36,745 nt of DNA from Anaerolineae bacterium (lineage in GTDB: Bacteria; Chloroflexota; Anaerolineae; J102). Below are positions 2,836 through 36,745 of this stretch, one piece after another. The notes under the pieces are model-generated. The model was not told the DNA's origin. It ran no database searches and saw only the letters and a program-made list of their open reading frames with translations. Both the position numbers and the translations under genes were made by a program. Location: positions 1 through 36,745 of the forward strand of contig JALWZT010000312.1 in assembly GCA_027002405.1 (NCBI GenBank), given 5' to 3'. The number at the start of each line of letters is the position of its first letter. Position 1 is the first letter of the stretch.

Positions 2836-4020
2836 TCACCCCACGTCTTGCAAAGCGGCGGCCAGGCGCTCTACAGCCAGGTCGATTTCGTTGCGAGTGA
2901 TGATCAGCGGCGGAACCAACCGTAACACATCCGCGCCCGCGTTCAGAAGCAAAAGCCCATGTCGATAGCCTGCCTCCACCACGTTGACGGCCGGTATGTC
3001 CAGTTGAACCCCCAGCATCAGACCTTTCCCCCGCACTTCCTGGATGGCCCGGTGTTTCAAAGCCTCCAACCGCTCTTTGAAATAGGCACCGACCTCCCGC
3101 ACGTGTTGCAGAAACGCGGGCTGGCTGATGCGATGGACCACCACATTGGCCACGGAACTGACAAATGGCCCGCCCGCAAAGGTGGTCCCATGATCCCCGG
3201 GGTGGATCACCTGGGCCACCCGTTCGGTGACCAGCACCGCGCCCATGGGCAAACCATTGGCCAGGGGCTTGGCTGCACAGAGGATATCGGGCAGGACCCC
3301 GAGCTGTTCATGAGCCCAAAAGGTTCCGCTGCGTCCCACACCGCATTGCACTTCGTCGAAGATAAGAAGCGCGTGGTGTTTGTGGGTCAGTTCTCGCAGA
3401 GCTAGCATGAAATCCACCTGGGCCGGATGAATGCCCCCTTCCCCCTGGATGGGCTCCACAATGACCGCGCACACGTGATCATCGATGGTTTCACGCACGC
3501 TTTCGATGTCGTTGAAGCGGGCGAATCGCACGCCGGGCATCAACGGTCGATAAGGGGCCTGGTATTTTTCCCGCGGGGTCATGGCCAGTGCGCCCATGGT
3601 GCGGCCATGAAACGCGCCGGTGAACGCGATGATATCGGTTTTGCCTTCACCAAAATGGGTGCGTGCATATTTGCGCGCAAATTTGATGGCGGCTTCGGTG
3701 CTTTCGGTGCCGCTGTTCTGGAAATGGACGCGGTCCGCAAAGGGGGTAAGCTCGACCAGGGTTTTGGCCAGGCGGGCCATAGGCTCGTTGTGGTAGAGAT
3801 TGGAATAATGCAGGGGTTTTTTCCCTGCTTGGCAGATGGTTTCTGCGATTTCCGGGTCGCCATAGCCCAGCGCGTTGACCGCGATCCCCGCGACCAGGTC
3901 CAGGTAACGGCGCCCCTCCACGTCTTGCAGCCACACACCTTGCCCATCCACCCATACGATGGGCGGGCGGTTATAGGCATGGACCACGTAAGTTTGTTCC
4001 AGTTCGATGATATCGTTCAT
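2836..4020 (-). CDS. argD: Acetylornithine aminotransferase
   Basis: A class III PLP-dependent aminotransferase that converts N-acetylglutamate semialdehyde to N-acetylornithine with glutamate; members of this family can also act in lysine synthesis. The 394 residues match the family length. Seen are the GTESTEAAIKFARKYA phosphate-binding region, FTGAFHGRTMGAL, the EPIQGEGG segment, the PLP-ring aspartate in LIFDEVQCGVGRSG, and the Schiff-base lysine in AAKPLANGLPMG. The ATG at 4020 is preceded by AGAGGA at good spacing. The CTATTTACAAAGCAG repeat boundary directly overlaps the start of that ribosome site. It follows argB in the same direction, but a 212-bp repeat spacer separates the two. 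Confidence 0.95.
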   Translation of the reverse strand: MNDIIELEQTYVVHAYNRPPIVWVDGQGVWLQDVEGRRYLDLVAGIAVNALGYGDPEIAETICQAGKKPLHYSNLYHNEPMARLAKTLVELTPFADRVHFQNSGTESTEAAIKFARKYARTHFGEGKTDIIAFTGAFHGRTMGALAMTPREKYQAPYRPLMPGVRFARFNDIESVRETIDDHVCAVIVEPIQGEGGIHPAQVDFMLALRELTHKHHALLIFDEVQCGVGRSGTFWAHEQLGVLPDILCAAKPLANGLPMGAVLVTERVAQVIHPGDHGTTFAGGPFVSSVANVVVHRISQPAFLQHVREVGAYFKERLEALKHRAIQEVRGKGLMLGVQLDIPAVNVVEAGYRHGLLLLNAGADVLRLVPPLIITRNEIDLAVERLAAALQDVG

Positions 4021-4232
4021 GATGGTATCCTCTGCTTTGTAAATAGGATTCGGATCAGGATTAGGATTGAGATCCTCAGGACAACGTTGAGCGAGGCAAC
4101 AATGGGAGTGTTCAGTATTCAGTGTTCAGTGGGTTGGCTGTTTCTTGGTGTCTTTGTGCTCTTTGAGTCCTTTGTGGTGAAAGATTATCTGCGTCAATCT
4201 GCGTTGTATCTGCGCAAATCTGCGTTCTCTTT
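4021..4232. repeat. Repeat spacer inside the arg gene set
   Basis: It holds a CTATTTAC boundary near 4029-4043, a period-6 array (GGATTC/GGATCA/GGATTA units) at about 4042-4070, and a CAACGTTGAGCGAGGCAACAA module. A short period-7 array of the GTTCAGT type, a CTTTGTG word-repeat at 4145-4180 and CTGCGTCAAT units follow. Its right edge continues into the last codons of argB. Confidence 0.8.
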
Positions 4233-9343: not shown

Positions 9344-9549
9344 AATAGAAAAGGGTGCGTCCTAAATGAGTTGGCGCCAGCCTCCTATCCGAGTGAACTC
9401 GGACTCTTTTAGGCGCTTCGCGCCGACGGTCGACCTCCGTCGACCGGATGACTGGACGGCGAAGGCCGTCCATTGGCCATAGGCCTTAAGTGTCCGACTT
9501 CAGTCGGTGAGTACAGCCTCAACCGAAATAGGACGCACCCAATAGAAAA
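9344..9549. mobile_element. 188-bp MITE-like insertion with 9-bp target duplication
   Basis: The element spans 9353-9540. Its ends are perfect 12-bp inverted repeats, GGGTGCGTCCTA (9353-9364) and TAGGACGCACCC (9529-9540), with further partial pairing inside. It is flanked on both sides by AATAGAAAA (9344-9352 and 9541-9549), a 9-bp direct repeat as expected from transposition. There is no transposase, so it would need one in trans. Inside lie successive short hairpins: CCGAGT/ACTCGG (9389-9402), GGCGC/GCGCC (9412-9424), GGTCGAC/GTCGACC (9428-9445), GGACGGC/GCCGTCC (9454-9471), GGCC/GGCC (9475-9485) and CCGACT/AGTCGG (9494-9507). The insertion falls between a candidate -10 and the TPR-type reading frame. 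Confidence 0.88.
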
Positions 9550-9559
9550 ACACCACAAC

Positions 9560-9724
9560 GTGGCCCTCATCCATGCCCAACGCCGGGATTGGGATGAAGC
9601 CATCCGGTGGTTCGAAGAAGCTATCCGGGCCAATCCCGCGGACCAGGACGCCCGCTCTGGGTTGGAAAAGGCCCGCCGTGCCCGGGACGCGGACGATATC
9701 TCATCTCCCGATCCTTCCTCCTGA
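9560..9724 (+). pseudogene. TPR-repeat remnant or tiny TPR protein
   Basis: The frame encodes one clear tetratricopeptide unit: [20 protein letters not shown] followed by [20 protein letters not shown] and a short acidic tail. A TPR protein normally has several units and an upstream helix start; here the reading frame begins abruptly at a possible GTG (9560) with no ribosome site. The 188-bp MITE-like element ends 19 nt upstream. Joining the flanks across one copy of the target duplication leaves no longer reading frame, because the sequence left of the element is a period-7 repeat. It could be a genuine 54-residue protein read from the extended -10 at 9338-9346, now separated from it by the element, or the 3' remnant of a longer gene. 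Confidence 0.5.
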
Positions 9725-17650: not shown

Positions 17651-18068
17651 GTGTCTGATGTCCGATGTCCGATGTCTAATGTCCAATGTCCGATGAAAAT
17701 AGAATGCAGATGCATGCAGATTTCCGCAGATATTCGTCATGCTGAGCGACCGGAGGGAGCGAAGCATCTAGCGAGCGAAGCGAGCGCCATGCCGTGGTTT
17801 TTTGCGCTTCGCTAGATTCCTCGGTCGCTTCGCTCCCTCGGAATGACGTCGCACGGCTCTATTTTCATAGCAGGCGCCACGAACGGCAGCTCGCTGATAC
17901 CAATGAAAACGCCTCGCAGCCAGGCTGGCGGTCCTGAAACGTGATGCGTAATGCGTGATGCGTAAGGCTCTCACGTTTCACGTTTCACGCATCACGCCCG
18001 TTGCCGCCTCGCTCAACGTAGGCCTGGCGATCTTAATCCTAATCCTAATCCTAATCCTAATCCTGATC

Positions 18069-32521: not shown

Positions 32522-32751
32522 GAAGGGCAGGGGGTAGGGGGATGGAACGCAGATTTGCGCCGATGCAGCGCAGATTTCCGCAGCTATTCGTCATGCTGAG
32601 CGACCGAAGGGAGCGAAGCATCTAGCGAGCGAAGCGAGCGCTATGCCGTGGTTTTTGCGCTTCGCTAGATTCCTCGGTCGCTTCGCTCCCTCGGAATGAC
32701 GTCGCGAGGCTCTACTGAACACTGATTACTGATAACTGATTACTGATAACT
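32522..32751. repeat. Repeat spacer
   Basis: It holds GCAGATTTGCGCCGA units, a palindromic repeat copy (32589-32705), a period-7 ACTGATT/ACTGATA array (32714-32750) and CTATTTACGCAGCAG, which covers the stop codon of the TIGR01777-type gene. Confidence 0.82.
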
Positions 32752-36270: not shown

Positions 36271-36745
36271 CTATTTACGGAGCAGGCGACATGAGCGGTA
36301 GTTCGCCGCATAACGATGAAAATGGGGCACATTTGCAGGTTTGCAGGTGGCACGTGGCAAGTGGCAGGTGGAGGGGACGCAGATTTGCGCAGATGCGACG
36401 CAGATTTCCGCAGATATTCGTCATGCTGAGCGACCGGAGGGAGCGAAAGCCTGCCCTGAGGAATCGAAGGGCATCTAGCGAGCGAAGCGAGCGCCATGCC
36501 GTGGTTTTTGCGCTTCGCTAGATTTCCTTCGTCTGCGCTCAGGACATGCCTCGGTCGCTTCGCTCCCTCGGAATGACATCGCGAGGCCCTATTTACGGAA
36601 CAGTCACCATGAGCGATAAGCTCACCGCATAACGACGAAAATAGGACGCAGGTGGCGGGTGAGCATGAGACCTCGGAGGGTCTGCGCAGACCTCCGAGGT
36701 CTGGGGCCACCACGCCCGCCCGGCGATGAAGTCGCCGGGCTATAA
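36271..36745. repeat. Repeat-mosaic spacer at the window end
   Basis: A compact CTATTTAC-type element begins one base after the moeA stop (36272-36324). GCAGGT/GGCACGT period-7 units (36333-36370), GCAGATTTGCGCAGA units, an enlarged palindromic repeat copy (36419-36582), a second compact element (36592-36644), and a hairpin GACCTCGGAGG/CCTCCGAGGTC (36670-36701) follow. The end is a fragment of the 133-bp repeat (36708-36745). No gene is seen; the next gene is outside the window. Confidence 0.82.

Follow-up and report, generated by a model that had tools for sequence, protein, structure and literature searches.

A gene-less mobile element of Anaerolineae in which ISKra4-type ends very probably enclose an IS200/IS605-type hairpin array

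A 188-bp element in the genome of an Anaerolineae bacterium is very probably a nested mobile element without genes of its own, in which the shell of an ISKra4-family MITE surrounds a hairpin array of IS200/IS605 type that lacks tnpA. An ISKra4 transposase supplied in trans would recognise the GGGTGCGTCC... ends and would move the element as double-stranded DNA, leaving a 9-bp duplication at AT-rich sites. The array within would retain, after the loss of tnpA, hairpins readable by Y1 enzymes on single-stranded DNA, and the complete inner transposon would have the layout A' E D - tnpA - C B A, with three hairpins per side. The order of nesting would be that of an array taken up between ISKra4-type ends. 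The features of the element and its site are as follows, numbered within the window, i.e. the whole stretch of 36,745 nucleotides that was analysed (contig JALWZT010000312.1 of assembly GCA_027002405.1).

9344 to 9352, no strand: 9-bp target-site duplication, left copy, AATAGAAAA
9353 to 9540: MITE-like element, 188 bp, coordinates exact
9353 to 9373, forward strand: left terminal inverted repeat, GGGTGCGTCCTA, perfect; the first 22 bp read GGGTGCGTCCTAAATGAGTTGG
9389 to 9507, forward strand: inner array of six hairpins (covariance model R1, 131.9 bits)
9389 to 9402, forward strand: hairpin A, CCGAG-TGAA-CTCGG (folding, covariation)
9412 to 9424, forward strand: hairpin B, GGCGC-TTC-GCGCC (folding, covariation)
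9428 to 9445, forward strand: hairpin C, GGTCGAC-CTCC-GTCGACC (folding, covariation)
9446 to 9453, forward strand: spacer between C and D, the place of the Y1 transposase gene in loci L200, L203, L217 and L202 of related genomes
9454 to 9471, forward strand: hairpin D, GGACGGC-GAAG-GCCGTCC (folding, covariation)
9475 to 9485, forward strand: hairpin E, GGCC-ATA-GGCC (folding, covariation)
9494 to 9507, forward strand: hairpin A', CCGAC-TTCA-GTCGG (folding, covariation)
9520 to 9540, reverse strand: right terminal inverted repeat, end TAGGACGCACCC
9541 to 9549, no strand: 9-bp target-site duplication, right copy, AATAGAAAA, an exact match to the left copy
9551 to 9724, forward strand: 3' remnant of a TPR gene (about 187 aa, intact in congeners)

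The sequence-only reading had described a non-autonomous element of 188 bp with perfect 12-bp ends and an exact 9-bp duplication, and both coordinates and ends match that description exactly. Complementarity between GGGTGCGTCCTA and TAGGACGCACCC is perfect over 12 bp and reaches 81% over 21 bp. In the 4.3-Mb genome the exact 12-mer end has 59 occurrences and the reversed control a single one, and therefore the ends are not due to chance. The 188 bp hold no transposase frame, and multiple near-identical copies are present in the genome: a sequence search with the whole element gave 47 matches, corresponding to about 45 copies or fragments, 34 of them with both ends. Flanks could be read in 33 of these (one, at a contig end, is untestable), and the 9-bp duplication is perfect in 26, has one mismatch in five and fails in two, so that 31 of 33 keep one, as expected from the clean insertion that had been proposed. 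The 42 distinct perfect duplications collected from this genome and related ones, where loci L080-L116 overlap in part with genomes G001, G006, G007 and G013 (duplicate sampling), give the symmetric, AT-rich consensus WWWTSAWWW. Element lengths in the own genome are 114, 187-188, 196-198, 239-240, 255 and 307 bp, the longer copies being due to extra modules inserted within the hairpins. One such module, of 67 bp (ATGGAGTTTTACAAA..., with nearly inverted ends), occupies the same point of the hairpin A loop in L041:598-852, L042:318-572, L037 and L049:873-1179, and has opposite orientations in L041 and L042. Exact lone ends on contigs C187, C221, C241 and C325, beside which a first scan revealed no transposase, are solo or truncated ends. 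Contig C187 (L048:1781-1879 and 3988-4086) carries two half elements with the right end only, separated by 2.2 kb, equally oriented and each with 93.9% identity to the query, a pattern as from local duplication. Other dispersed repeat families, of 60-176 bp, are also found in the intergenic regions of the window, e.g. at 244-323, 1591-1670, 17711-17790, 32565-32644 and 36395-36474.

The TPR frame to the right of the element had been proposed as a gene that the insertion may have cut off from its promoter, a suggestion that is contradicted by the comparison with congeners. The frame corresponds to the last ~58 codons of a gene of ~187 aa, which congeners have in intact form, ahead of the same acylphosphatase gene. 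Homology to this gene starts at 9551, two bases past the right duplication. Since the target duplication is intact, truncation of the TPR gene preceded the insertion, and the empty site already held no more than the 3' remnant. Upstream of the site lie intergenic repeats and dnaX, and in relatives a permease-like gene is found there.

The outer ends lead to a known family of insertion sequences. The exact 22-bp left end GGGTGCGTCCTAAATGAGTTGG is present in two genomes from the bacterial family of the host, in 10 and 8 copies, and many of the contigs concerned end about 5-150 bp from it, as is typical where an IS in many copies interrupts assembly. In related genomes, IS-like copies with this end run into the start of an ORF, MSSNS..IVQEIR.EF, and the N-terminus preserved in a decayed 623-bp copy from a congener matches intact, orthologous proteins of 505-539 aa in the class. 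Two of these transposases were tested with the curated ISKra4 model and scored 296.5 and 281.3 bits (cut-off 205). A full-length IS with matching ends had been named as the thing to look for, and one was found in the class: it is complete at 1668 bp, encodes a 514-aa transposase that is one of the two tested, is flanked by a perfect 9-bp duplication, AAATTAGCC, and agrees with the 22-bp end of the element at 19 of 22 positions. Congeners also have ISKra4 transposase genes between other GGGTG.GT ends. The ISs that bear the exact 22-bp end are known only as contig-end fragments or decayed remnants, none of them whole; a search of the own genome, whose assembly is fragmented, revealed no ISKra4 transposase, a scan of viral_contigs for the 21-bp end gave no match, and neither did a search of plasmids for the transposase N-terminus. 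ISKra4, or p-MULT 4, belongs to the Mutator-superfamily DDE transposases (PMC3942029). On sequence grounds the outer shell is an ISKra4-type MITE, and the element is presumably moved in trans by an ISKra4 transposase.

Other MITEs of related genomes, in L084, L086, L111, L112 (163 bp), L128 (218 bp) and L107 (111 bp), share the 22-bp left end and have unrelated interiors, that of L107 being mostly one long hairpin. The 22-bp ends also occur in L084, L088 and L092 of JAAENL, a MAG labelled Halieaceae and binned as a gammaproteobacterium; the contigs come from the same metagenome as Bse_26, and misbinning is possible.

The interior is indeed the ladder of hairpins that had been read from the sequence, with six of them in the element. 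Folding of the whole element against shuffled sequences gave z = -8.2 and -9.2 for the two strands as RNA, and -6.6 as DNA. Compensatory changes, looked for across copies, are well above those in shuffled alignments. In 29 copies the six local hairpins are paired in 97.7% of cells and 10 pairs are changed on both sides; 43 cells are double-changed, against 9.3 in shuffles, none of 500 reaching that number. A class-wide alignment of 22 sequences agrees (95.7% paired, 18 of 34 pairs changed on both sides, 80 double-changed cells against 23 when shuffled, 0 of 500 shuffles as high), with a covariation score of 0.325, compared with 0.106 for shuffled and at most 0.063 for slid alignments. Both RNAalifold and single-sequence energy folding favour a long-range pairing between the two ends of the array; it was rejected as a feature of the array, since it scores no better than chance for covariation and includes two columns that hardly ever pair.

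Paired changes can also be produced by template switching alone. The hairpins might accordingly be unselected, if template switching in replication (quasi-palindrome correction) matched the arms and flipped the loops, with paired changes arising in one step. Traces of such a process are visible: near-identical copies differ by inversion of a loop, GGAG/CTCC in hairpin D (L102 vs L100 and L089) and AAGC/TTGC in an inserted hairpin (L110 vs L116), and the 67-bp module of hairpin A occurs in both orientations. Because near-identical copies show these loop inversions, template switching does act on the hairpins, and it may do so alongside selection, both contributing. As the whole explanation it is unlikely, however, in that it leaves unexplained the persistence of the six-hairpin order across families and classes, and the long-range quasi-palindromic arms have not been corrected in the same way.

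The array is widespread in the class. The interior covariance model, whose E-values are rough, has matches in 62 of 249 genomes of the class and in 19 of 301 genomes of a phylum-wide draw that includes other classes; within the window, where the sequence-only reading had likened the hairpins to those of a 133-bp repeat, it detects no further copy. Tandem arrays without ISKra4 ends are present in several genomes, and within the genus the same array lies between at least four types of ISKra4-type ends:

End type A: the ends of the 188-bp element
End type B: GGGTGCGTTTCAATTTGGGG
End type C: GGGTGCGTCCCAAATTATTGG, similar to those of an ISKra4 IS (L139)
End type D: GGGTGTGTCCAATTTCGGTTGG

Other inverted ends enclose it as well, e.g. 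on contigs C117 and C198 of the own genome, with flanks like CCAGAAATAACTTCC. By inspection, many copies of types B and C have duplications of 8-9 bp, and their right flanks carry -35/-10-like sequences at a distance of ~15 bp more commonly than random flanks do (12 copies, p 1.6e-5), a placement consistent with targeting of sigma-A promoters by part of the ISKra4 group. Among loci L261-L272 (G007, G001), with types B and C, downstream sequences include TTGACA-17-TAAAAT and TTGACA-17-TATAAT. The arrays are old, widespread in the class and repeatedly placed between ISKra4-type ends. A second type of hairpin array (GGGCGCTTCGCGCCC, CCGGGGGATGAAGTCCCCCGG, CCGGATTTATCCGG, CCCGGCGACTTCATCGCCGGG) is located between ISKra4-type ends in L054:473-1083 and L078:1282-1491 and beside one in L094, so that such ends may carry several array families.

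A partner for the array emerged from a search for Y1 transposases (PF01797), in which ±1.2 kb around strong gene regions was scanned for arrays and several Y1 genes were found to adjoin them. In array-bearing genomes 14 of 26 Y1 loci have array matches, against none of 20 random regions (Fisher p 5e-5); in genomes without array matches, a clear array was present at one of 14 Y1 loci. All 16 Y1 proteins encoded beside arrays, at 15 loci, fall into a single clade (support 99/98), which contains none of the 25 others. Structural matches of the Y1 protein are the HUH transposases 2f4f and 2a6m, and the IS200/IS605 model NF033573 (cut-off 55) gives 75.7 bits to the protein of the own genome and 58.3 to another. 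In four loci tnpA lies between hairpins D and C, at a site that corresponds to an array spacer of variable length. The layout is not uniform: L201, from the own genome, and L212 have a complete array before tnpA and only C B A after it. Because of the position of tnpA in those four loci, the array is most simply read as an IS200/IS605-type transposon without tnpA. It is established for this family that its transposases recognise hairpins on single-stranded DNA (PMC6006769), and as the enzymes read such hairpins, recognition would be a natural cause of conservation, probably the one that keeps the structure of the array. The array is presumably moved in trans by the Y1 enzyme. The earlier suggestion of selection for structure in the transposing DNA strand thus pointed in a plausible direction, while the reason appears to be a different one from that given, namely that the hairpins would belong to an IS200/IS605-type element set between ISKra4-type ends.

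On the other hand, the array could be a structured RNA (a terminator, mRNA stabiliser or small RNA) whose pairs are kept for RNA function and whose link with the Y1 gene is secondary. The strong covariation of the local helices would fit such a role, as would the intergenic location of the arrays, e.g. in L178, where two genes on the same strand enclose a tandem of arrays. This is nevertheless improbable, given that the two strands fold about equally well, that a single Y1 clade is flanked by the array, which tnpA splits, and that changing ends and tandem copies are as for mobile DNA. A scan of the whole window against Rfam at the gathering score also gave no match to the array; a TPP riboswitch was detected elsewhere in the window only, at 2047-2160 on the reverse strand (71.7 bits, gathering score 54.3).

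About as improbable is a reading of the interior as a true REP/BIME element that is moved by a RAYT, a domesticated REP-associated transposase. In its favour are palindromes in many copies, arrays in tandem and a Y1 gene with arrays at its flanks. The REP element of a RAYT is a single hairpin tagged by GTAG or CGTC, whereas each unit here has six hairpins, and no such tag, 5' GTAG included, was noticed at the feet of the hairpins among the sequences inspected. The Y1 protein itself passes the IS200/IS605 model and not that of RAYTs: the curated model NF047646 gives 32.6 bits to the own-genome protein and 25.4 to the other, against a cut-off of 80, and on that model a RAYT was rejected as the partner protein.

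That the element is an ordinary MITE, derived by internal deletion of a parent IS and with interior hairpins of no significance, has next to no probability, for although its ends and 9-bp duplications are usual for the family, IS fragments that bear these ends do not contain the interior, which is found class-wide without them and between other ends. As an internally deleted IS the interior was likewise rejected, the IS interiors known here being without the array.

The nested element favoured here, an ISKra4-type shell around a tnpA-less array, allows a bolder reading, which is tentative and on balance doubtful. The element might be dual-mode, mobilised as double-stranded DNA by ISKra4-type enzymes through its outer ends and as single-stranded DNA by the Y1 clade through the inner three-plus-three hairpins, such arrays being a cargo that recurs in DDE elements and is perhaps selected, at least four sets of ends having captured it independently. 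No earlier description of the six-hairpin array or of the nesting was found in searches of an open-access library. The association links abundant hairpin repeats in a class of uncultured bacteria with one particular clade of single-strand transposases, and it shows these repeats spreading further inside unrelated double-strand transposons. Whether hairpin-rich interiors of MITEs travel as passengers, survive as relics or serve a second enzyme as substrates is a question that can now be tested.

Several known systems share part of these properties. Like ISKra4 ISs and their MITEs, the element has GGGTG.GT.. ends and a 9-bp duplication, with matching autonomous ISs in related genomes; unlike the ISs, it has no transposase, and its interior would come from another class of transposon. 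Part of the ISKra4 group is reported to sit near promoters (-35/-10; PMC3942029), and end types B and C resemble that part in having many copies ~15 bp upstream of -35/-10-like sequences, whereas end type A, that of the element, uses the AT-rich WWWTSAWWW sites and has no clear preference for promoters. PATEs, transposase-free relatives of IS200/IS605-type elements that carry palindromes in Haloquadratum (PMC3119063), resemble the array as high-copy, tnpA-less derivatives that keep the palindromes of a Y1 transposon. They have one hairpin near each end, whereas the array has three per side, is bacterial and class-wide, and is packed between inverted repeats of DDE type. With REP/RAYT systems the array shares a Y1 gene that has multi-copy palindromes on both sides, several structures on each, and terminal hairpins that usually start with CCGA, CTGA or TCGA (CnGA). 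It differs from them in the tyrosine motif of its Y1 protein (YINGQ, not YV[VI]xEQ), in the failure of that protein on the RAYT model, and in the fixed order of its six hairpins.
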